Shown: one piece after another, positions 46,189 to 57,428 of the stretch
Numbering within the stretch: the stretch's first letter is position 1
Layout: the number at the start of each line of letters is the position of its first letter
Assembly: GCF_009674685.1 (NCBI RefSeq)
Contig: NZ_WKJI01000004.1
Location: 1 to 62,426, forward strand
Origin: Pedobacter puniceum
GTDB taxonomy: Bacteria; Bacteroidota; Bacteroidia; Sphingobacteriales; Sphingobacteriaceae
Reading direction: 5' to 3'
Length of the DNA stretch: 62,426 bases
Notes under the pieces: model-generated
What the model was told of the DNA's origin: nothing
Databases searched by the model: none
Seen by the model: only the letters and a program-made list of their open reading frames with translations
Program-made: the position numbers and the translations under genes

Positions 46189-46569
46189 TTAAACAGAGAA
46201 TCTTTTTACTTCACAGCTTGTATTGCCGAAATTTATTAACAAACCGGTTTTTACTTTACTAGCTTTTAAATAAGATATTACTTGACTTTGAAAAAGTTTA
46301 GGCATTATTCCGGTAACTGATTTTAATTCAACAATAATTTTATTTTCTACTAAAAAATCACATCTAAATTTACCTACAGATTGTCCTTGAAATAAAACTG
46401 TGAATTCTTTTTCATACTCAAATTTCAAATTCTCCTTACTAAATTGAAGTATAAGAGCTCTAGCGTATATTTTTTCTAAAAAACCTGAGCCTAATTCTTT
46501 ATGCACTTCATAACAGTATCCAATTATCTTATGTGTAAGAGTATCTTTTACTAAATTTGATTCTGCCAT
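46189..46569 (-). CDS. GxxExxY protein
   Basis: 126 residues. The family signature GSGFLEKIYARAL (G-x-x-E-x-x-Y form) follows HKIIGYCYEVHKELG. Later comes a PD-(D/E)XK-like core: KFRCDFLVENKIIVELKSVTGI with Asp, Glu and Lys in nuclease order. Biochemical role unknown; the family is scattered and often close to repeats. It interrupts a rimO-ftsY neighbourhood and may be a recent arrival. Repeated TTTTTGATTTCAC words follow its stop. Confidence 0.9.
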   Translation of the reverse strand: MAESNLVKDTLTHKIIGYCYEVHKELGSGFLEKIYARALILQFSKENLKFEYEKEFTVLFQGQSVGKFRCDFLVENKIIVELKSVTGIMPKLFQSQVISYLKASKVKTGLLINFGNTSCEVKRFSV

Positions 46570-48081: not shown

Positions 48082-48315
48082 TTAAATAGATCCTTTATTG
48101 ATGAATCTGTTAATAGCCTCGGTAATACCGATTTTATTGATAGTTTTTATTGCTGATGTGGAAACTTTTAAAGTTATCCAACGGTCTTCTTCAGGGATAT
48201 AAAATCTCTTTAATTGAAGGTTAGGATGAAACTTACGTTTGGTTTTCACGTTCGAGTGAGATACGTGGTTACCTACTAATGATGCTTTTCCTGTTAAATC
48301 ACAAATTCTTGACAT
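48082..48315 (-). CDS. rpmB: 50S ribosomal protein L28
   Basis: 77 residues. Starts MSRICDLTGKASLVGNHVSHSNVKTKRKFHPNLQ, the L28 signature, ending FINKGSI. One Cys only, so no zinc ribbon. First gene of the rpmB-rpmG-DUF4295 operon with a good promoter upstream. Confidence 0.97.
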   Translation of the reverse strand: MSRICDLTGKASLVGNHVSHSNVKTKRKFHPNLQLKRFYIPEEDRWITLKVSTSAIKTINKIGITEAINRFINKGSI

Positions 48316-48363
48316 GACTATATCGTGTTTTTTCTATTAAAACTCAGTTTTACAAAGAGTTTG

Positions 48364-48394
48364 CAAATATCAGAAAATATTTCTTAATTGACAA
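48364..48394 (-). promoter_or_regulatory. Putative promoter of the rpmB operon
   Basis: On the minus strand TTG (48392-48394), 20 bases, then GATATTTG (48364-48371), one base from TAnnTTTG. Located about 50 bases upstream of rpmB. Confidence 0.55.
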
Positions 48395-48459
48395 GTACTC
48401 ATCAAATTTATTTCAATATAATTTTAAAAGAAGTGTTTTAATTAATAAAAACTGTTACA

Positions 48460-48957
48460 TTATGGTGTGTTTTCTATAAAAAAAAACTGAAAATCAATAT
48501 TAAATTCCATCCACACATCATCTGTTTTAGTAGGTCATCCCACGTTAAACGAGAATGAAAGACTAAGCAATGCATCGTATAACACGTGTGTAATTCTTTT
48601 AAAGGGTGGTTGTTACAAAATTTATACTCGTTCCAGTTGATGTTCAAAAAATATTTATCTAGAAAACTAGTGGTCGGTATTCCGAAATCTCTTATTTCAA
48701 AAAATGGATTACCAATTTTTGTTTTGTGCTTTTTGTTGAATACTTCATTTTCACTCCATAAAGATAGAGTAGTATTTATATTGTAATCATCATTAAGTTT
48801 GTTTTTTATATAGAATTTTTTTGTCCGAATTTCTTCAAGTCTTAGTTTATCATTTAGTTCTACTAATCTTTTTAGGCTATGGGGTGTAAATTCGTAATTT
48901 GAATTACATGATAATAAAGGATAATCATATTTGTCTATACAAAATATGTTATCTACA
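48460..48957 (-). pseudogene. Decayed gene fragment (5' truncated, one frameshift)
   Basis: A minus-strand frame stays open for ~150 codons, beginning after a stop at 48958-48960, without any ATG in its first 130 codons. It reads DKYDYPLLSCNSNYEFTP...HSLKRLVELNDKLR...WNEYKFCNNHPLKELHTCYTMHCLVFHS...LTWDDLLK. At an A4 run (about 48524-48527) the frame breaks. One added A restores TDDVWMEFNIDFQFFFIENTP and a stop at 48460-48462. Codon use and composition look genic. This is the 3' part of a lost protein-coding gene. I do not recognise the family; a short Trp/His/Cys-rich C-terminal region resembles uncharacterised Bacteroidota proteins. The plus-strand 66-codon ORF overlapping it is a shadow. 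Confidence 0.6.
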
Positions 48958-48960
48958 CAC

Positions 48961-49171
48961 TACGCAGCCATAAAATGGCGGAGTTAATTGAAAAAATCAG
49001 ATTTTTTTAAATTTTTAGAGCTTAAGCTTCTTTTAGTAGCTCTTTATTGAGCTCAAATAGTAGTCGGAAAAAGCCGGGATTAAAATAAAATTTATAATTT
49101 ATGTAATTAATTATTCTGTTTAAGTTATTACTAATTAATTGTTATATAGTCAGAATAAAAATATTATCCAA
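48961..49171. other. Gap between decayed gene and metallophosphoesterase, no gene seen
   Basis: 210 AT-rich bases, with short imperfect hairpins such as GAGCTTAAGCTTC near 49018-49030 and GAGCTC-type words near 49055. No ORF or promoter is convincing. Confidence 0.4.
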
Positions 49172-49807
49172 TTAAATAAGAATATCAACGGGTGGGTGTA
49201 ATAATTTATAATATGGCTGATGTGAACCGGTAATGTTGCTGGTTATTGCAGCATTAATATATGCTGTTCCGTTTTTTTCTTGTGTACCATAATGTTCGTG
49301 AATATGACCAAAAACTGCTAATTTGGGTTTAACTTTTTGTAAAGTTTTGAGCAAATCTTCACACCCTAGTTTATTATCCATTATGGTAAATGGTGGTGTG
49401 TGGGTGATTAATATATCTGTATTTAGAGGAATTTTATTCCAAATTTTTCTGATTTCATCCCCTCTTTTCCGATTAAAAGCCATGCCTAAATAGTACGGTG
49501 TTACAGGGCTACCGTAAATATTAATTCCATTAATGTTAATGCCTTTGTTTTCTAAATACGTAATATTTGGTGGTATAATAGCTTTCTTTTGTTTTTTAGA
49601 AATGTTTTCCAAGCATAAATCGTGGTTGCCAGCTATGAAAATTTTATGGGTATAATTTTGTTTGGTAAACCAATAAATAAAATCTTCTAGTTCATCTTCT
49701 GTACCGTATTCGGTTACATCTCCACAATGGATAAGGAAATCTCCACCACAAAGTTTTAATTTGTGATGGAGATTGTGGGTGTCTGATAAGATGGTAAAAG
49801 CAGGCAT
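49172..49807 (-). CDS. Calcineurin-like metallophosphoesterase
   Basis: 211 residues. All metal motifs are present: SDTHNLHHKL (D-x-H), HCGDVTEYG (GD), AGNHDLCLEN (GNHD), LITHTPPF and VFGHIHEHYG (GHxH). It belongs to the UPF0046/MPPED-like branch of cytosolic phosphodiesterases, substrate unknown. It lies 103 bases downstream of the DUF262 pair on the same strand, so membership in that operon is possible but not proved. Confidence 0.9.
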   Translation of the reverse strand: MPAFTILSDTHNLHHKLKLCGGDFLIHCGDVTEYGTEDELEDFIYWFTKQNYTHKIFIAGNHDLCLENISKKQKKAIIPPNITYLENKGININGINIYGSPVTPYYLGMAFNRKRGDEIRKIWNKIPLNTDILITHTPPFTIMDNKLGCEDLLKTLQKVKPKLAVFGHIHEHYGTQEKNGTAYINAAITSNITGSHQPYYKLLHPPVDILI

Positions 49808-49910
49808 AACGCAACATTAGAAATTTCACGAAGTTTTTAGATTTCGAAAGTCTTTCTATAATTGTTTAAAATATGAACATAGGGGTTTAAGTTATTTCCT
49901 ATTAAGTTTA

Positions 49911-52151
49911 TTAATTGGTTTTACATAGCTCCTTGATAAAGCTTAATGCCGAATCTCTGTCATCAAATTCATGCGTGTTGACCCAGTCTTTGTTTTCTGT
50001 CCAAAAGAATTTCTTAGAGTTACTATTGAATGCGATTTGAATTCCATTTATTTCAAAGTATTTGCATTCATTTGTTGAATTTTGATGGTGATATATTAGG
50101 TTTGGATTGTTTAATTCAAGGAAAAGAGAATATGAATAATATGTTCTATGTTCTCCGTTTGTTTGTGTTGTCTTTAACAAAAGAATATCAAAATCGCTAT
50201 TCTTACGGATTAATTTTTCCTTCCCACAAACGGTAATCATTTCATGATGTTTAATGAAATAATAACGCCAATCATTTTTGTCTGAAAATTCATCTATAAT
50301 TTTTTGTAAATCGTTTGTTAAATTTAGAGTAGATACTTTATCAAATAATTGTTTTAAAATCTCTCGCTTTTGGTTATTATCTCTAAGGAGTCTTTTCCAG
50401 CTAATATCACGTTCATTGTTGATGAGAAAGCTGAGATTCTTACCTTTGCTTAACAAATAATCTCCTGTTGCTAATAAGGCTCTTTCAAAAAGAAAATTGT
50501 CAAATTTATTCAACCCTTCATTACTAAATACGGCATTTGATTTTTCTGAGTATGCTTTGAATTTATCAATATTGTGTATTCCGTTTTCGTCTTTACACCA
50601 ATCTAAAATAAAGCCGATTTGTCCTTTGAAATATCGGTGATTTTCAATTTCAATAATTGCGTTTTTCCAATCATCATTTTGTGTAATAAGTTTCGCTTTT
50701 AGTTTTTCTTCTATAAATTGCTCACTAATGAAACCCGAAAGCGAATTAATTTGTGTGTCTGCGAAGTGATCAACGATTGAATTTCTATGTTGCAACAATT
50801 CGTTTATAGAACGTAGAGCATTTGCAAAATCATTAGCATTGTTAAATAAATAGGGTCTGCTACCTTCTACCAGATTACGAACAATACGCAACCAACTTGT
50901 TAATTTTTCTATTTCAATATCTTCTTCTAATGCTAAATATTGATAGTATGCAAATGCAATAACTAAGTCAGGGTATGATAAGTCATTTTTAATTACGCCA
51001 TTAAAAATTTCTACCTCATTTACATAAGTCGTGTCAAAAAGAAATGTTTTCAATCCGCTTTTATCAGAAATTTTATTTAAAACGAATTTCAATGTTTTAA
51101 AATAATCATCATCAAAACAGCCTAACTCCAAATATTGATTGAATGAAACTTTTTTTGAATTGTTTGTTAATAAATCAATATTGGTTCTGAAAACATCACT
51201 CTTTGATTTGTCTGCTTTTAAAGTGTAATTTATTACAGCCATTGTTCTGAAAAAATTCAGAAGCTGTTCGTCAAAAATATTTTCGGTTTTATCACGATAA
51301 TTCCAAAACAAATCTGTCCAAAGTGTATCAATTTGATGTGAGAATGATTCGGTGGCTTCTGCATTGCTTTCCCAACTCTCTTTGGTTATATGTTGTTCAA
51401 ACTTTGCTTTAAAATTCTCAAAATCAGTAAGAGGTTTACCTCTTGCGTTCATTTTAATATACAAATCATCAGAAAGACCGAAGTTTTGTAATTCTATGTA
51501 GTGGAAACTAATGTTGTTTAGTTTGTCCCATACTTCCTTTGTATCCTTAAAAGTATGATAAATAGAATCAAGCATGTTAAGCATTGATTTTATGGTGGGG
51601 TCTTTTTTCCAAGAAAGGTAAAACCAATAGCTGTTAGTTATAGTTTTTGACAGCTCGTTGTTTTTGGGTTTTGTTTTTTCTTTGTCTAGGTAATCAGTCT
51701 CAATTAGATTTTTAAAGTCTATTCCTTTGTTTATTAAATCTTGACAAAATTCTCTTGAACTGGTTCGTGTTTCGTAAGTGAATTTGGTCAATAGTTTTCT
51801 TAGCTCATTATCTAACTTATCTTCTTTGACTGCAACAAACCAATGCAACAAAAACAAGGTTGTTAATCGTTGTTGTCCGTCAAGCGGTTGAAAAACATTG
51901 TCTTTTAAGCTGCCATAAACAAAATCTAACTCTAAAGATTTTCCATTAGTAGCTTCAAATAAAGAATTTAAAAAGTTTTTTCGCAGTTCTTCTTTACTTT
52001 CTCTTCCTTGAGCATAATCACGCTGAATAATTGGAATTTCAATTTTACTATGCGGTTGCCATTCCAAATTATTACATTGTTTACAAACATTAGAGTCGTT
52101 TGACAGTAATTGTAAAAAAGTAAGTTTTTTAGATGTCGGATTATAGCTCAT
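49911..52151 (-). CDS. Large DUF262-domain protein (GmrSD-like), second of a pair
   Basis: 746 residues. DUF262 nucleotide-binding/hydrolase motifs: IIQRDYAQGR at 41-50, PLDGQQRLTTLFLLHWF at 90-106 and the YIKMNARGKPLTDFENFKAKFE block near 230. An N-terminal CKQC at 23-26 could bind metal. No HNH/DUF1524 motif is evident; the middle has an EEKLKAKLI...IENHRYFKGQIGFIL region and the ~150-residue C-terminus is unassigned. It begins within the last 11 bases of the upstream DUF262 gene, so the two are translationally coupled. The family includes GmrS of type IV restriction and phage-defence proteins, so an antiphage role is likely by inference. Confidence 0.85.
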   Translation of the reverse strand: MSYNPTSKKLTFLQLLSNDSNVCKQCNNLEWQPHSKIEIPIIQRDYAQGRESKEELRKNFLNSLFEATNGKSLELDFVYGSLKDNVFQPLDGQQRLTTLFLLHWFVAVKEDKLDNELRKLLTKFTYETRTSSREFCQDLINKGIDFKNLIETDYLDKEKTKPKNNELSKTITNSYWFYLSWKKDPTIKSMLNMLDSIYHTFKDTKEVWDKLNNISFHYIELQNFGLSDDLYIKMNARGKPLTDFENFKAKFEQHITKESWESNAEATESFSHQIDTLWTDLFWNYRDKTENIFDEQLLNFFRTMAVINYTLKADKSKSDVFRTNIDLLTNNSKKVSFNQYLELGCFDDDYFKTLKFVLNKISDKSGLKTFLFDTTYVNEVEIFNGVIKNDLSYPDLVIAFAYYQYLALEEDIEIEKLTSWLRIVRNLVEGSRPYLFNNANDFANALRSINELLQHRNSIVDHFADTQINSLSGFISEQFIEEKLKAKLITQNDDWKNAIIEIENHRYFKGQIGFILDWCKDENGIHNIDKFKAYSEKSNAVFSNEGLNKFDNFLFERALLATGDYLLSKGKNLSFLINNERDISWKRLLRDNNQKREILKQLFDKVSTLNLTNDLQKIIDEFSDKNDWRYYFIKHHEMITVCGKEKLIRKNSDFDILLLKTTQTNGEHRTYYSYSLFLELNNPNLIYHHQNSTNECKYFEINGIQIAFNSNSKKFFWTENKDWVNTHEFDDRDSALSFIKELCKTN

Positions 52152-53880
52152 TTTCTGATAATATTGCTTGTGGTAAATATTGATTTATTACTTTTTGTAT
52201 TTTTTCAAAATATGAAGTTCTATCGTTTTCATTCCAAACTTCAATGTCTTTCACGTTTGCTGAATAATATTTCATAAAAACATTTTTTGTACAAATTGGA
52301 ATAAAAGTTCCATTCATTTCTCTTTCAATAATTTTTCTCCTTTTTTCCTTGAAAGAATCGTTTTTGTATGATCGATTGGTTCCTCTATCTAACAAACAAA
52401 GGTTTTGCAACTTATTATCCTCTTCACCTAAAACATATTCCACAATAGATTTGAATTCATTTTCATCAATCAGGTTGTTGTCATGTATTGTGCAACAAAT
52501 TTTATTATTAAACTCCTCGTTTTGATGATTGTCTGTTTTTATGAAGTTGTTTTTTAGCCATTCAACTTGATTTTCCTTTTTAACTTTTACCTCGGTGGCA
52601 ATTGCGTGAATGTGTTCAACATCCCAAAATTCTTTTTTGTATCGGTCAAAAGGGAAACGATTAGTTTCGTTTTCGTTGTTAAGCATCGTTTGTATGTTGT
52701 GAAGCAATAAAATTTCACGAACATATTTTCCGTTATATTCGACTTCTTTCAAATTCACATTTTCAAATTTGGATTTTATTTTTTGGTCTATCCAATATGA
52801 AAACTCCGTTTTTGATTTTTCTTTTTTCTCGTTAAGAATAGTTTTCAAGTCAGTTCCAACTGTAATCAGATAACCAATTTTGTGATATAATTCTCTGTTA
52901 TTGTACCACTCTTCAAGTGTTTGGAAATACTTTTTTATTTCCTTCCAATTGTCGTTTATTTCTTTTTCTGATTTGGTTTTGAATTTTTCATTAAAGAAAT
53001 GGAAAGTTGAATACTTATCATCACTTGGCTTGTCTGACATTAAATTGAAAATAAACTCAATTCTAGTTGCCAAGTTATTTTCATTTTTGTTGATAAAATA
53101 CCAAAAAGAATCGTCTTGTAAGGCATATTCAATTCTGTCCCATTCTGAAGCAATTTCTAATTGTTTTAGACGTAGTTTTTCATTGTCTGCTTGTGCAAAA
53201 TTTGAACTATTTAAAAACAAAGCCTTAATCAATTCAGCATTTGTTAGCGGAATTTTACCACTGTTGATTCTTGTGAAAATATCGATAGAATCGTCATTAT
53301 TTTCCGATTCGTCCTTTTTAGAAGTTTCGTACCAAATGATTTTAACTTTCTCTAAAAATGGCGTAATAAACTTTGAACTTATTGAGGTATGCCCTTCATT
53401 TACTTTTTTTTGAAACCAAGTCTTAATAGTCGTGTGGGAATTGTAAATATGAAAATAATCAACATTTTTTTTAGAATCAACTTCTGATTTGCTGTCTAAT
53501 TTTATCAAAAAGTCTTCACTGCCTTTTCGTGTTTCATATTGTATTTTGAAGTTATTTCTTTCACTTTCAACAAAGCGTTCTAAGTTTTTTAAGACAAGGA
53601 ATGTTGTTGTTAATCGTTGCTGTCCGTCAATTACATCGTACCAATCTCCAATTAAATTATTATTGTTTTTTGTTTTATCATCGCTCTTGATTACTACAAC
53701 TGGTTGCAAACAGTAAAATTCATCATCCTTTTTATTTGGTTTGTTTATAAAATCCCATATATCATTCAATAATTCTGTTACTTGTTGTTCTGTCCAGCGA
53801 TAGCCTCGCTGATACGCAGGAATAAAAAAATTCATTCCTAATAATTCACTAATTGGTTTTATAGATATGTTGTTACTCAT
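52141..53880 (-). CDS. DUF262 plus HNH/DUF1524-type nuclease protein, first of a pair
   Basis: 579 residues from ATG 53880; a TTG at 53910 would add ten. DUF262: IPAYQRGYRWTEQQV (QRGYRW at 24-29), DVIDGQQRLTTTFLV (DGQQRLTT at 85-92) and FTRINSGKIPLTNAELIKALFL. The C-terminal half carries FWDVEHIHAIATEV with D420, H423 and H425, the HNH-like motif of DUF1524, followed by QNLCLLDRGTNRSYKNDSF. This is the GmrSD layout: a DUF262 NTPase joined to an HNH nuclease. GmrSD cleaves DNA with modified cytosines; specificity here is unknown. It overlaps the next gene by 11 bases. Confidence 0.9.
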   Translation of the reverse strand: MSNNISIKPISELLGMNFFIPAYQRGYRWTEQQVTELLNDIWDFINKPNKKDDEFYCLQPVVVIKSDDKTKNNNNLIGDWYDVIDGQQRLTTTFLVLKNLERFVESERNNFKIQYETRKGSEDFLIKLDSKSEVDSKKNVDYFHIYNSHTTIKTWFQKKVNEGHTSISSKFITPFLEKVKIIWYETSKKDESENNDDSIDIFTRINSGKIPLTNAELIKALFLNSSNFAQADNEKLRLKQLEIASEWDRIEYALQDDSFWYFINKNENNLATRIEFIFNLMSDKPSDDKYSTFHFFNEKFKTKSEKEINDNWKEIKKYFQTLEEWYNNRELYHKIGYLITVGTDLKTILNEKKEKSKTEFSYWIDQKIKSKFENVNLKEVEYNGKYVREILLLHNIQTMLNNENETNRFPFDRYKKEFWDVEHIHAIATEVKVKKENQVEWLKNNFIKTDNHQNEEFNNKICCTIHDNNLIDENEFKSIVEYVLGEEDNKLQNLCLLDRGTNRSYKNDSFKEKRRKIIEREMNGTFIPICTKNVFMKYYSANVKDIEVWNENDRTSYFEKIQKVINQYLPQAILSENEL

Positions 53881-53950
53881 TTTATTTACTTTGTGATATA
53901 TTAAAAACAATTCGGCATAAACTTAGCATCGCTTATAGCATTATTTAATT

Positions 53951-54184
53951 TTAACTCCTCTTACCCCAAGTTCTTCCGCCATTAGTTGAATAATAAAGAC
54001 CTTTTGATGTTGTAGCCAAAATTTCTTTTCCGTTGTCTGTTAAATCTTGAAAATCACCAGTAGATGATGACCCTGAGTAACGAAGAACCCATGTTCTCCC
54101 GTCATTGGTAGAATACTCAATTTTGTTTTGTTGTTTTGAACTAATTCTGATAAGTTCTTTACCTGTGTTGATTATTTGAGCCAT
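53951..54184 (-). CDS. 77-residue two-repeat Asp-box protein
   Basis: Two internal copies of a TGKE/NGKE ... YSTN-G-RTW unit: INTGKELIRISS...IEYSTNDGRTWVLR and DNGKEILATTSKGLYYSTNGGRTWGKR. The STNDGRTW and STNGGRTW words match the Asp-box (BNR) turn of beta-propellers, though two units cannot make a closed propeller alone. Soluble, no signal peptide. It lies 22 bases after the FtsA-like gene and 70 before the DUF262 pair, so it is probably in that operon. It may oligomerise into a propeller. Function unknown. Confidence 0.7.
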   Translation of the reverse strand: MAQIINTGKELIRISSKQQNKIEYSTNDGRTWVLRYSGSSSTGDFQDLTDNGKEILATTSKGLYYSTNGGRTWGKRS

Positions 54185-54206
54185 AATTTTTTGATTTTTA
54201 TGATTG

Positions 54207-55502
54207 TTAATGTTTCTTAAATTCTAATTCTAAAATTCCTAATGCAGATGTATATGTAGGTTGATTTAATAATTTTTTTATTTCAGGGTTGATTGTTGTG
54301 AATATAGGTTTAATTTTGAAATCATAAAAATAATTTGTTTTAAATATAGGTTTAAGTAATTTTTTAAATTGAGGTGTATTTGAAGGCCCTCCTGTAAACA
54401 CTATTCCATAAATTATTTGATGTTTATCAATATGAGAGCTAATAATAAAATTAATAAGTTCTAGTATTTCAATAAGGCGACATTGAATTACAAACGCTAA
54501 GTCTTTTTTAAATACTGCCTTTTTGTAGTGTTTAAATAATTTCGCTTCAATAGTTTCATTATCATCTATATTTAAATAGATGGCATTGCCATGTTTGATT
54601 TTGATTTCTTCGGCATTTTTTAAGAACAAACCAGTATACTTTGCAATATCCTTCGTAATCATGTTGCCGCCGTAAGGTATTCTCTCAGTAAAAAAAAGGC
54701 TACTGTTTTTATAAATTGCTATATCAGATTTTTCTGCGCCAATATCTACAACAATAACGCCTTCTGCTTTTTCTTCTCGATTTAGAATACTTTCTGCAGA
54801 AGTTATAATAGAAGGATAGGTCGTTTTTAAAGAAATACCAATCAAATCACAACATCTTCTCAAATTTTTAATACATACAGAAGGGCAAGTAAGAACTTTA
54901 AAAATTCCTTCAATGCTTGTGCCGTTCATCCCTATTGGATTTATTATTTCATCAACCCCGTCTACATTAAAATGCATGGACTCGGTATATAAAATATATT
55001 CATTTGCATACAATCGGGATTGATGTATAGCTAATTTCAACTTCTCAATATCATCTGAAATTATTTCTGAATGCCGCTTTCTGACGCATATCTCTTGGTG
55101 TTCATAAGCTTTTACTGCACATGAAATACTAGCACAAATACTTTTTGGAATAAAATCTGCTTGTTTTGCTGCCTTATCAATAGCGTTTTTTAAACATTGT
55201 GATACTTTAGAGTAATTTGCAATTATACCTTTTTTGATACCTTCTGTTTTTGATTCTCCAAAACCAATAATTTCGATTTTTTTACTGGCGTTTAAACGAG
55301 CAATAAAAACTGCTATTTTATAATTACCAATATCTGCAACCGTAATAATCTCATCACTTTGATGATGCTCATTCTCTATAGTATTATAATTTACAGGAGG
55401 TTTTATAATATTAATACTATCTCCGTAAACTCTTTGGTTGATAACGGATATGCGGTTAAATATCTTTTCAAGATTAAAATTAAATAAGGCTTTAAGATTC
55501 AT
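54207..55502 (-). CDS. Orphan FtsA-like actin-fold ATPase
   Basis: 431 residues. Actin/FtsA landmarks: VADIGNYKIAV at 55-65 (phosphate 1), GFGESKTEGIKKGIIANYSK, a 1C-like region with EYILYTESMHFNVDGV, VIVVDIGAEKSDIAIY with Asp253 (phosphate 2) and VFTGGPSNTPQFKKLL (adenosine loop). The order fits FtsA, but the gene is far from any division cluster. It has no C-terminal linker and amphipathic helix; the N-terminal ~25 residues (LKALFNFNLEKIFNRISV) look amphipathic instead. This is a diverged FtsA paralogue in an accessory operon, role unknown; it might bind FtsZ or membranes. Confidence 0.85.
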   Translation of the reverse strand: MNLKALFNFNLEKIFNRISVINQRVYGDSINIIKPPVNYNTIENEHHQSDEIITVADIGNYKIAVFIARLNASKKIEIIGFGESKTEGIKKGIIANYSKVSQCLKNAIDKAAKQADFIPKSICASISCAVKAYEHQEICVRKRHSEIISDDIEKLKLAIHQSRLYANEYILYTESMHFNVDGVDEIINPIGMNGTSIEGIFKVLTCPSVCIKNLRRCCDLIGISLKTTYPSIITSAESILNREEKAEGVIVVDIGAEKSDIAIYKNSSLFFTERIPYGGNMITKDIAKYTGLFLKNAEEIKIKHGNAIYLNIDDNETIEAKLFKHYKKAVFKKDLAFVIQCRLIEILELINFIISSHIDKHQIIYGIVFTGGPSNTPQFKKLLKPIFKTNYFYDFKIKPIFTTINPEIKKLLNQPTYTSALGILELEFKKH

Positions 55503-55570
55503 TATATTTTAAGTTGAAGACAAAAATATATTTGTACCCAGCCAAAACATGGCACAGTTAAGCCTCCTCT

Positions 55571-55912
55571 CTAGAGAAATTTCTCTGTTTTTAAAAAGTT
55601 GATATAGTTATTTAATAAAGATTGTATTTGTACTCTCGCAATAGGGTTGGCCGAGTGTACACGAAACTGTAAGTTTCTTAAATCTATATCGCTTTCATAT
55701 ACCAGCCATTTAGCACAAGCATAACCATCAGGAAGAATATTTTTGTTTTCATCTTCACCTAAATCATTATCAAAACTAATGAAACAAGGTAGCCCTTGAT
55801 TTTTAATGTATCTGACAAAATCGTTATAGTTTCTTACCACAACAAAGTTATCAGCATTGTTATAAACATCTGTTATATTTCTTATATCATCTAAGAAAAG
55901 TTTATATGGCAT
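55571..55912 (-). CDS. Cyclic-phosphate-processing receiver (cREC)-like protein
   Basis: 113 residues. Begins YKLFLDDIRN with an acidic pair at Asp8-Asp9; CFISFDNDLGED places Asp48 and Asp50 where receivers hold the phosphoacceptor; FRVHSANPIAR carries His86. This set matches the stand-alone receiver variants predicted to process cyclic phosphates in RNA or nucleotide-based conflict systems. No output domain. It lies between the WYL regulator (62 bases) and the FtsA-like gene (68 bases), same strand. Confidence 0.75.
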   Translation of the reverse strand: MPYKLFLDDIRNITDVYNNADNFVVVRNYNDFVRYIKNQGLPCFISFDNDLGEDENKNILPDGYACAKWLVYESDIDLRNLQFRVHSANPIARVQIQSLLNNYINFLKTEKFL

Positions 55913-55974
55913 ATTATGTGATTAATACTATAAGTTATAGCGTTTAGAATCAGTATTAAAAAGTGTTAAATTTT

Positions 55975-56874
55975 CTATCTGAAATTTTCTAATGCTCTCA
56001 TGTAGATGTTTCTAATTTCATTTCTTAAACCTTTTGGTTGGATAATTTTAACTCGATCGCCGTAAGAAAGTATTTCCATGATGAAGTCAAACGATGTTAA
56101 TACATTTAGGCTAATTTGAAATTCTTGAGCATTGTCTTTTAATACTTGTTGACTGCTATGCAAAGGAAAACTTTTGATATATTTTCCCTGTTCTACATCA
56201 AAAGAAAGCACAATTTTTTCGGGTTTAAGATCTTTAGGATTAATGATGCCGAAACAATTAGCGAATCTTTCGTTTAAATCAAACCCGGAAGGATAATTAA
56301 ATTTTTTAGCAGTAATTTCTAACTGGGTGATACGGTCGAGACCAAAGGTTTTTACTTCTCCGTCTTTTTCATCTTTACCAATAACGTACCAACGGTTTTT
56401 GAATTCTTTTAATCCATAAGGCGCAATTAGTCGAGTAGAGATTTCATCATTCCAATACTTGTGATAAATATATTTTATCATTTTAGAATTTTGAATAGCA
56501 TGTAATATACCATGAAAATTCTCGGTACCGTTTGGTCTGCGCTTTTCAAAATGGATAAATCTTGAAATACCTTCGGTTTGATTTAAGGCATTAAATGTAT
56601 CGAAAGCTTCTAGCATCCGGTTGTTTAAATCAGGTTCATCTTGTGATACAATGCGATAAACTTTTGTAGAGAAATCATATTGGATGTCTATTTTATAAAG
56701 ACTAAATATGTCTTCAAGATCGCGTTTTAGCGTACGTTTAGAAATTCTAAAATCATAACCCTGAATTTCAGATTCTCTTTCTAGATAATTGTTGATATCT
56801 TTTAAAGTGGCAGGAGATTTTCTTATTCTGTTAATAATAAGACTATAACGATTGATAACTTCCTTTTTAGACAT
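55975..56874 (-). CDS. WYL-domain transcriptional regulator
   Basis: 299 residues from ATG 56874 (MSKKEVINRYSLI), the usual family start; upstream ATG 56898 and 56916 are alternatives. N-terminal winged helix (~1-70, ISKRTLKRDLEDIFSLY), then the WYL domain (~115-190) with the motif as RWYVIG, and a WCX C-terminal domain. WYL regulators bind ligands and repress phage-defence loci (BrxR, CapW) in known cases. An inverted repeat with 10-bp perfect arms lies upstream. First gene of the minus-strand accessory array. Confidence 0.9.
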   Translation of the reverse strand: MSKKEVINRYSLIINRIRKSPATLKDINNYLERESEIQGYDFRISKRTLKRDLEDIFSLYKIDIQYDFSTKVYRIVSQDEPDLNNRMLEAFDTFNALNQTEGISRFIHFEKRRPNGTENFHGILHAIQNSKMIKYIYHKYWNDEISTRLIAPYGLKEFKNRWYVIGKDEKDGEVKTFGLDRITQLEITAKKFNYPSGFDLNERFANCFGIINPKDLKPEKIVLSFDVEQGKYIKSFPLHSSQQVLKDNAQEFQISLNVLTSFDFIMEILSYGDRVKIIQPKGLRNEIRNIYMRALENFR

Positions 56875-56905
56875 ATTGAGATTATTTTTCGTAAACATAC
56901 GAATC

Positions 56906-56930
56906 AACAAAGACAAAATATGTCTTTGTT
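56906..56930. promoter_or_regulatory. Perfect inverted repeat, likely WYL operator
   Basis: AACAAAGACA (56906-56915) and TGTCTTTGTT (56921-56930) with a 5-base AAATA centre. It lies 32-56 bases upstream of the WYL start and over its promoter: on the minus strand TATGTTTA at 56889-56896 is a near -7 box. It also lies 67 bases upstream of the divergent gene at 56997. Size and symmetry fit a homodimer operator. Confidence 0.7.
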
Positions 56931-56996
56931 TAAGATAAGGGTTGTGATAAATTTAAAATTGTAGTTCTAAAATTTATTGCTAATTTGCTATAGTTT

Positions 56997-57428
56997 ATGA
57001 ATGTATCAAAAAAAGTTAAAAAAACTTGTCCCAAGTGTCAATCTCGTGAGGTTGTAAAAAGCGGAATTATCAATGATAAACAACGCTTTAAGTGCAAAGA
57101 TTGCCTATATTATTTTACTGTAGATAAAATAGGTAAACAAGTAGATAATTATTACATTATCAAAGCTTTGCAGCTATATGTAGAGGGAGTTTCTTATAGA
57201 GAAATAGAACGTTTGTTGGGTGTAAGCCATGTTTCCGTAATGAAATGGGTTAAAAAGTTTCAGTTAACAAGACCGGTTAAAACGGTCTATAAACCTTCAT
57301 ATAAAATACTTAAACATCAAGAATTGATAGATTTTTATGCTCAGGAAGAGAATTTAAAAGGAGCAGGAATGATTGTTACAGAATTAGGAGACAAATATAT
57401 GCTCATCAAGTGGGATAGGTTTAAATAA
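56997..57428 (+). CDS. IS1-type zinc-ribbon/HTH DNA-binding protein (domesticated transposase N-terminus)
   Basis: 143 residues. A zinc ribbon (~10-40: CPKCQSREVVKSG...QRFKCKDCLYYF, two CxxC) precedes a helix-turn-helix (~55-90, YVEGVSYREIERLLGVSHVSVMKWVKKF), the arrangement of IS1 InsA/transposase N-termini. There is no DDE catalytic domain; the last ~45 residues are a short unrelated tail. No inverted repeats or partner ORF were seen, so it is not an active IS. It precedes the MHS transporter by 105 bases and may regulate it. Confidence 0.85.
   Translation: MNVSKKVKKTCPKCQSREVVKSGIINDKQRFKCKDCLYYFTVDKIGKQVDNYYIIKALQLYVEGVSYREIERLLGVSHVSVMKWVKKFQLTRPVKTVYKPSYKILKHQELIDFYAQEENLKGAGMIVTELGDKYMLIKWDRFK

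Follow-up and report, generated by a model that had tools for sequence, protein, structure and literature searches.

A WYL-headed seven-gene array of Pedobacter puniceum, probably a switched two-protein type IV restriction cassette of GrwAB layout

Known systems and the Pedobacter puniceum locus

Two-protein GmrSD-like type IV restriction systems have been described recently and, in the available parts of the reports, no dedicated regulator is named for them (PMC12137116, PMC11411939, PMC12409362). One of them, GrwAB of Vibrio cholerae WASA, acts on targets with modified bases; the nuclease GrwA is encoded first, GrwB with its extended C-terminus is encoded second, and mutants in the motifs or in the H and N residues are inactive (PMC12137116). 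Here we analyse a stretch of 62,426 nucleotides from Pedobacter puniceum (contig NZ_WKJI01000004.1, positions 1 to 62,426; hereafter the window), where a minus-strand array of seven genes (49172–56874) begins with a WYL regulator and continues with a stand-alone cyclic-phosphate-processing receiver domain (cREC), an orphan FtsA paralogue, a small Asp-box protein, two DUF262 genes (D1 and D2) and a metallophosphoesterase (MPE). An earlier note, made from the sequence alone, had described a WYL-headed accessory locus with defence-type content; this description is supported, all seven genes were located at the positions that it gave, and the gaps and the overlap were recomputed from the coordinates. 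In our view the array probably arrived by horizontal transfer and forms a two-protein type IV restriction cassette with the layout of GrwAB, switched by WYL. Direct observations support this reading, namely the insertion, the gene order, the recurrence of WYL with cREC, MPE, D1 and D2, the recurrent operator and the conserved motifs.

Recurrence of the WYL, cREC, MPE and DUF262 genes

The array is not a chance row, because WYL, cREC, MPE and the DUF262 pair recur together. A WYL profile of 10 rows (E<=1e-60) gave 20 matches in 17 of 351 genomes of the family; one is the window, three (L043, L044 and L045, each with a cREC near WYL) were already in the profile, and the other 16 are new test loci. 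Nine of these 16 hold at least one of cREC, MPE, D1 and D2. Both DUF262 genes are present in eight (L275, L277, L278, L281, L282, L283, L285 and L286) and a D1-like gene only in one (L284); cREC is found in four (L278, L281, L282 and L283), MPE also in four (L277, L278, L281 and L282), and all five families in three (L278, L281 and L282). The order in L278 is D1-D2-cREC-AAA ATPase-MPE-WYL on a single strand, with overlaps between D2 and cREC and between MPE and WYL (the AAA label reflects likeness to a protein of L065), and in L281 and L282 the genes WYL-MPE-cREC point away from D1-D2. The possibility raised in the earlier note that these genes never co-occur elsewhere fails for five of the seven (WYL, cREC, MPE, D1 and D2); the FtsA gene has no such partner locus and the Asp-box gene has one. 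The accompanying worry about two neighbouring modules is answered in part, since five genes recur jointly and the FtsA and Asp-box genes are private to this array. The same note had set MPE slightly apart. In other loci this gene accompanies the WYL unit: it overlaps the WYL gene in L277 and L278, and in L281 and L282 the two genes are next to each other.

A search seeded with cREC matched 7 of 201 family genomes, and in six of them, counting that of the window, a WYL gene lies no more than 3 kb away; the seventh match, of 49 residues with stops, was not opened. Copy number was determined in eight genomes that were picked for holding these loci and are thus not a random sample: cREC is single-copy (E<=1e-8) and within 3 kb of a WYL gene in all eight, and MPE is single-copy (E<=1e-10) in six and adjoins WYL in four (G317, G368, G321 and G168). 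In the window, MPE and WYL are 6.2 kb apart. With these copy numbers, the nearness of cREC and MPE to WYL is not an effect of many copies. On plasmids, the WYL search matched 48 records, five of which were opened. The Chryseobacterium balustinum plasmid has one WYL place with a DUF262 pair and an Asp-box gene, and another with cREC; the WYL loci of C. oryzae, Hymenobacter cellulosilyticus and H. monticola are accompanied by cREC, a DUF262 pair and a single DUF262 gene, respectively. In a scan of viral contigs with the WYL profile none was confirmed. A limited search of PubMed Central found no paper joining DUF262, metallophosphoesterase and WYL, nor one joining DUF262 and WYL in Bacteroidetes.

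Some other features of these loci deserve mention. L281 (G317) and L282 (G368) have near-identical neighbours (open reading frames, ORFs, of 120, 217 and 73 residues, WYL, MPE and cREC) and clearly different D1-D2, as if the WYL unit had stayed in place and the restriction pair next to it had been exchanged. A small DnaQ-type 3'-5' exonuclease is repeatedly found with WYL and/or the DUF262 pair (L275, L277, L049, L065, L041, L044 and L160), and an AAA ATPase in L049, L065, L277 and L278; neither is among the array genes of the window.

The DUF262 pair

D1 lies directly before D2 in all 27 loci found through D2. These comprise the window, 8 other genomes, 12 viral contigs and the 6 plasmids that were inspected among 17 matching records. 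The genomes come from a class-level search that matched 9 of 395, the window's included, with D1 adjacent in 8/8 of the others; it is also adjacent in 12/12 of the viral contigs, and in the plasmid locus L054 D1 is annotated as two pieces. The motifs of D1 are Q24R25, DGQQR (85–89) and FTRIN (202–206, FxxxN), and those of D2 are Q43R44, DGQQR (91–95) and, as third motif, YIKMN (YxxxN). QR and DGQQR are invariant in the eight aligned rows of each protein, and the same is true of E422-H423-I424, N493, N502, N507 and K513 of D1. A profile search of the PDB with D1 retrieved DUF262 entries, SspE (E 1e-11) among them, and gave a weak match to 7p9k (E 2e-4); with D2 it retrieved one DUF262 entry only (E 4e-4). 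A fold assignment for D2 was tried and rejected, given a model with pLDDT 73.9 and pTM 0.58 and meaningless Foldseek matches (best E 0.08).

This pair agrees with GrwAB in that the first gene encodes DUF262 plus a putative His-Me nuclease and the second DUF262 plus an extended C-terminus; both proteins carry QR and DGQQR, the first also has FxxxN, and the presumed catalytic H is followed by two N nine residues apart (PMC12137116). It differs from GrwAB in the YxxxN form of the third motif of D2, and in that D1-D2 is accompanied by WYL, cREC and MPE, with an operator of WYL type ahead of them. Layout and motifs, compared with the published description, suggest that D1-D2 belongs to the GrwAB type, the layout being nearer to two-protein GrwAB than to single-chain GmrSD. 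TgvAB, from VPI-2 of V. cholerae, is likewise formed by two DUF262 proteins, one with a nuclease domain, and both are needed; however, there the DUF262-only protein is named first (A), the genes are embedded in a type I restriction-modification operon, and the H-to-N spacing in TgvB is shorter (H571/N602) (PMC11411939, PMC12409362).

An ORF that follows D2 in L066 (11599–12144, plus strand) opens with 16 residues that correspond to the start of a WYL protein (L044/L065 type); the sequence beyond them resembles the end of a D2 of a different type, which may point to a scar of recombination.

The WYL regulator and its candidate operator

The WYL protein carries a WYL domain and a C-terminal WCX domain; Pfam gave no helix-turn-helix (HTH) family in its N-terminus at E<=0.1, and the alignment shows a conserved segment of the SKRTLKRD type. 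The operator-like perfect repeat that had been noticed before this gene is real, with perfect arms of 10 bp. Its core, of the GACA-N5-TGTC type, occurs only once in the window, and the dyad with up to 3 mismatches also once, against 0.01 expected; in the 3.9-Mb genome the 23-base dyad core has one exact occurrence and two more at 3 mismatches, versus 9 in the reversed control. The 10-bp arm alone is not very rare (when the 170-bp region was shuffled 5000 times by mononucleotides, 80 shuffles reached it), and the recurrence of the operator at other loci is stronger evidence than the length of its arms. The core is present upstream of the WYL units in L043, L044, L045 (twice), L052 and L253, which were used for finding the motif. 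The outer arms vary yet remain palindromic (CAAAGACA..TGTCTTTG in the window; GCGACA..TGTCGC in L043, in L044 and at one of the L045 sites). The window (minus strand), L043 and L045 share an identical GACATATTTTGTC. In the 16 test loci six sites with arms of at least 5 were detected, whereas first-order simulations gave 0.45, with at most 3 in any of 40 runs; all six are located at most 75 bp before an ORF start, and in four loci (L283, L285, L287 and L289) the operator heads the WYL-containing unit. A scan for sigma-70-type promoters was uninformative (56 found versus 47.8 expected), and no terminator-like site was found on the minus strand in the gaps of the array.

BrxR-family repressors offer a parallel, as WYL regulators of a defence island with type IV restriction that have an inverted repeat with a 5-bp spacer before their own gene; the repeat in BrxR is imperfect and of 11 bp, in contrast with 10 perfect bp here, the likeness being drawn from the published description (PMC9122601).

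cREC and the metallophosphoesterase

The cREC protein clears the PF20274 cut-off of 27 bits, and residues D8, D9, D48, D50, H86, S87, N89 and P90 are invariant in the seven aligned sequences, with the receiver aspartates kept. Stand-alone cREC with WYL is already published: Iyer et al. (2021) reported this association and predicted the processing of cyclic phosphates for cREC, a function that is only predicted in that work; in contrast, a link to a metallophosphoesterase or to a two-protein DUF262 system is not mentioned in its section 3.4.8 (PMC7824862). Relatives of cREC are present in 98 phage records; the 20 listed all belong to genomes of 310–378 kb, are 39.7–43.1% identical, and several of them are annotated as nudix hydrolase.

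MPE matches the PADLOC candidate PDC-S10 (residues 5–191 of 211, 261 bits), whose "S" we take to stand for a single-gene candidate; the difference is that the MPE gene of the window type recurs with WYL. By eye it keeps SDTH, GD, GNHD and GHIH, which are presumably the calcineurin-type motifs. The limited literature search found no paper on PDC-S10.

The insertion

The distance from ftsY to the gene of a transporter of the major facilitator superfamily (MFS) is 9946 bp in P. puniceum versus 1471 bp in three close relatives (G018, G091 and G108), whose FtsY is 98–99% identical to that of the window. Alignment places the junctions at 48379 and at 56968–56971, where the relatives carry 115–118 bp of differing sequence instead, and the bounds proposed in the earlier note (48460–56930) fall just within the inserted segment. 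The GC content is 28–30% within the insertion versus 32–37% in the flanks, and there is no integrase among the seven genes of the array. This comparison relies on the 5 of 18 genomes of the genus, the window's included, in which the MFS gene was matched at E<=1e-100 (the remaining 13 were unusable); the fifth, G103, has 2.4 kb of different content at the site, including a 613-residue ORF that we take to be of the carbon-starvation type.

The FtsA paralogue and the Asp-box protein

The orphan FtsA is indeed a paralogue, and a diverged one. Like canonical FtsA it matches TIGR01174 (247.6 bits versus a cut-off of 175.85) and has the FtsA fold, as judged from a model built with 18 rows (pLDDT 84.8, low for residues 1–49) whose best Foldseek match is 7q6g (E 2.8e-40, 24% identity). 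It differs in being a second copy, located within the insertion and not in the division cluster beside ftsZ, the ordinary FtsA of this genome (31% identical) being encoded elsewhere. Tree and alignment group it with the paralogues of G418 and G050, on long branches that leave this grouping in doubt; these two kin come from a Pedobacter metagenome-assembled genome (RYN_327, 36%) and from P. quisquiliarum (32%), and at E<=1e-56 these three are the only ones among 400 order-level genomes. All three have an N-terminal extension and lack the C-terminal linker and helix; the window paralogue ends at the fold, without the amphipathic membrane helix that the ordinary FtsA of P. puniceum carries (RGLFASLLEGTKKFI...). 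The phosphate-2 loop is also altered, reading DIGAEKSD in the window paralogue and DIGAAVTS in the two kin, versus DIGGGTTD in ordinary FtsA.

The analysis does not support a recurrence of FtsA with the rest of the array. From a search with the three-row paralogue alignment the best 80 of 212 loci were kept; the top two are the kin, and the rest are at most 32% identical and mostly beside an FtsZ motif, which was present in 73 of the 80 and missing from the two paralogue loci and five others. None of these best 80 of 212, both kin included, has a WYL, cREC, DUF262 or Asp-box match, and the paralogue is absent from the 16 other WYL loci. A search of the genome contigs with the single protein gave no match. 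Candidate kin in plasmids were rejected (at most 27.5% identity among the matches listed, 20 of 47, the annotated ones mostly FtsA), as were those in phages (12 matches of at most 29.4% identity, the annotated ones mostly FtsA; the viral-contig scan was empty). An N-terminal amphipathic membrane helix in the paralogue was only suggestive (permutation p 0.09, 0.02 and 0.11). The limited literature search found no paper on an FtsA paralogue in defence islands, and this actin-family division protein behind an apparent defence regulator is a separate puzzle.

The Asp-box protein has a full-length homologue (43% identical over 77 residues) on plasmid NZ_CP033935 of C. balustinum, where the gene order is exonuclease, D1, D2, hypothetical, AAA, Asp-box, WYL, GTPase and LeoA-type dynamin. 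The gene was thus met twice, each time with WYL and a DUF262 pair. This plasmid was the only match in 72,556 plasmid records; no match was obtained in phages, in viral contigs or in the 16 new WYL loci, nor, with the strict threshold E<=1e-9, in the rest of the 395 genomes from the phylum, and weaker homologues would escape this threshold.

Proposed function and alternative explanations

The mechanism and the joint defence function that we infer for the array would be the following. A WYL dimer bound to the dyad before its own gene would hold the minus-strand array at a low level, and the repression would be lifted by a nucleic acid or cyclic nucleotide that enters the WYL pocket when the cell is infected or its DNA is damaged. 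D1, with its DUF262 NTPase/sensor and predicted His-Me nuclease, and D2, with DUF262 and a large partner region, would then jointly cut foreign, probably base-modified, phage DNA. The phosphoesterases cREC and MPE may act on the WYL ligand, most likely removing it or clearing cyclic-phosphate or nucleotide products, and so reset or tune the switch. Two private passengers would sit behind the same operator, the Asp-box protein and the FtsA paralogue; the latter, if active, may bind or disturb the divisome. The locus offers candidates for a regulator, for an operator and for two accessory phosphoesterases (cREC and PDC-S10) that recur jointly, and a cassette with an assayable restriction output would allow a direct test of the link of cREC to WYL ligands.

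Several observations weigh against this reading. Of the 14 D1-D2 loci considered, 10 have no WYL match; the pairs of L283, L285 and L286 are low-scoring; and no cREC, D1, D2 or MPE was found in 7 of the 16 fetched WYL loci (L276, L279, L280 and L287–L290), several of them near contig ends. The WYL locus of the Adhaeribacter swui plasmid has neither cREC nor DUF262 annotated, and the only MPE of G057 is on a different contig (C18) from its WYL genes. The zero matches to cREC, D1, D2, WYL and MPE in 80 control FtsA loci speak for the reading, but these loci are mostly outside Bacteroidota. At 12 of the 16 test loci no operator heads the WYL unit, and none was detected at 9 of the 15 discovery loci; nor was a promoter of the Bacteroidota consensus (TTG-N17-22-TAnnTTTG) found on the minus strand between 48300 and 57100, which includes the region upstream of WYL, so that transcription from the operator is only presumed. 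The Pfam GmrSD_C match of D1 (19.9 bits) is under the cut-off of 23, and FtsA and Asp-box are devoid of a recurrent partner beyond the one Asp-box locus.

Some of these points would be expected if the array were a stack of independent defence modules that share neither regulation nor function: a WYL-cREC unit, a DUF262 pair standing by itself and a PDC-S10 phosphoesterase. Defence genes cluster anyway, D1-D2 is frequently found without WYL, the MPE of G057 is apart from the WYL genes, and the cREC relatives of phages, the neighbours of which were not examined, suggest that this gene also exists elsewhere. However, five families are together in three other loci, in one of which (L278) they are on one strand with two overlaps, single-copy genes sit beside WYL, and there is only one operator core in the window; hence we regard independent modules as unlikely. 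Less probable still is that the array is a decaying remnant, weakly or not expressed, with its partners lost: the start-less open frame at its left end and the exonuclease and AAA genes of several related loci, not among its own genes, would fit such decay, but the seven genes are all open and keep their conserved motifs where aligned, so that we give this explanation very little weight.

The role of FtsA sets apart two further proposals. As an integral effector, a WYL-induced, membrane-associated, filament-forming variant would stall division while D1-D2 destroys phage DNA. Its FtsA fold, the gaps of 68 and 22 bp on either side within the array, the lost C-terminal helix and altered phosphate-2 loop, which would suit a dominant-negative form, and the GTPase and LeoA-type dynamin (another membrane-type NTPase) that follow Asp-box-WYL in C. 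balustinum are consistent with this; against it, none of the 16 other WYL loci has FtsA kin, the two Pedobacter paralogues have no WYL, cREC, DUF262 or Asp-box beside them, and the N-terminal amphipathic helix is weak by permutation, which makes such an effector improbable. We would also assign a low likelihood to an extended form of the restriction cassette, where cREC and the PDC-S10 phosphoesterase would erase the WYL ligand (a nucleotide made upon infection, or an RNA or DNA fragment) and so toggle the GrwAB-like nuclease, and the same switch would drive a rebuilt FtsA as a division brake, with its C-terminal anchor lost and possibly moved to the N-terminus, filling the membrane NTPase slot that dynamin-like proteins hold in Chryseobacterium.

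Gene coordinates and flanking regions

The intergenic gaps from WYL down to D1 are of 62, 68, 22 and 70 bp, D1 and D2 overlap by 11 bp, and 103 bp separate D2 from MPE.

Table 1. Features of the inserted segment in the P. puniceum window.
Feature	Position	Strand	Basis
WYL regulator, 299 aa, ATG start	55975–56874	minus	Pfam WYL 56.9 bits, WCX 36.4
cREC, stand-alone cyclic-phosphate-processing receiver domain, 113 aa	55571–55912	minus	Pfam cREC_REC (PF20274) 86 bits
Orphan FtsA paralogue, 431 aa	54207–55502	minus	Pfam FtsA 99.5 bits
Asp-box (BNR-like) protein, 77 aa	53951–54184	minus	Pfam BNR 23, under cut-off 27
D1, DUF262 plus His-Me/HNH-type C-terminus, putative GrwA-like nuclease subunit	52141–53880	minus	GmrSD_N 117.7 bits
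D2, DUF262 plus C-terminus of ~500 residues, GrwB-like partner	49911–52151	minus	GmrSD_N 77.8 bits
MPE, calcineurin-like metallophosphoesterase, 211 aa	49172–49807	minus	Pfam Metallophos 57.1 bits
Dyad operator (predicted)	56906–56930	minus	AACAAAGACA-N5-TGTCTTTGTT, 31 bp before the WYL start codon
Inserted segment, ~8.6 kb	48380 to ~56968		comparison with three close relatives

The left end of the insertion holds a 161-codon open frame (48477–48959, minus strand) that lacks an ATG start; it has no Pfam or PHROG match and is probably a gene remnant. The left flank contains genes that we take, from their sequence, to be of the rpmB/rpmG, ftsY and rimO types, and a protein of the PDDEXK_3 nuclease family (46189–46569, minus strand, 128.5 bits) adjoins ftsY. 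On the right side there is an ORF of 143 residues with an IS1-type zinc ribbon and HTH (56997–57428, plus strand); because the three relatives, whose site is empty, carry matching sequence there, this ORF marks the site and is outside the insertion, and a similar ORF is found in G103. Past it come what we presume to be an MFS-type transporter and a histidine-kinase-type protein, also named from their sequence. WYL units were found beside what are presumably ribosomal-protein genes in the window (48082–56874, rpmB/rpmG), in L044 (a cluster of the rpsK/rpsD/rpoA/rplQ type) and in L277 (rplS type).

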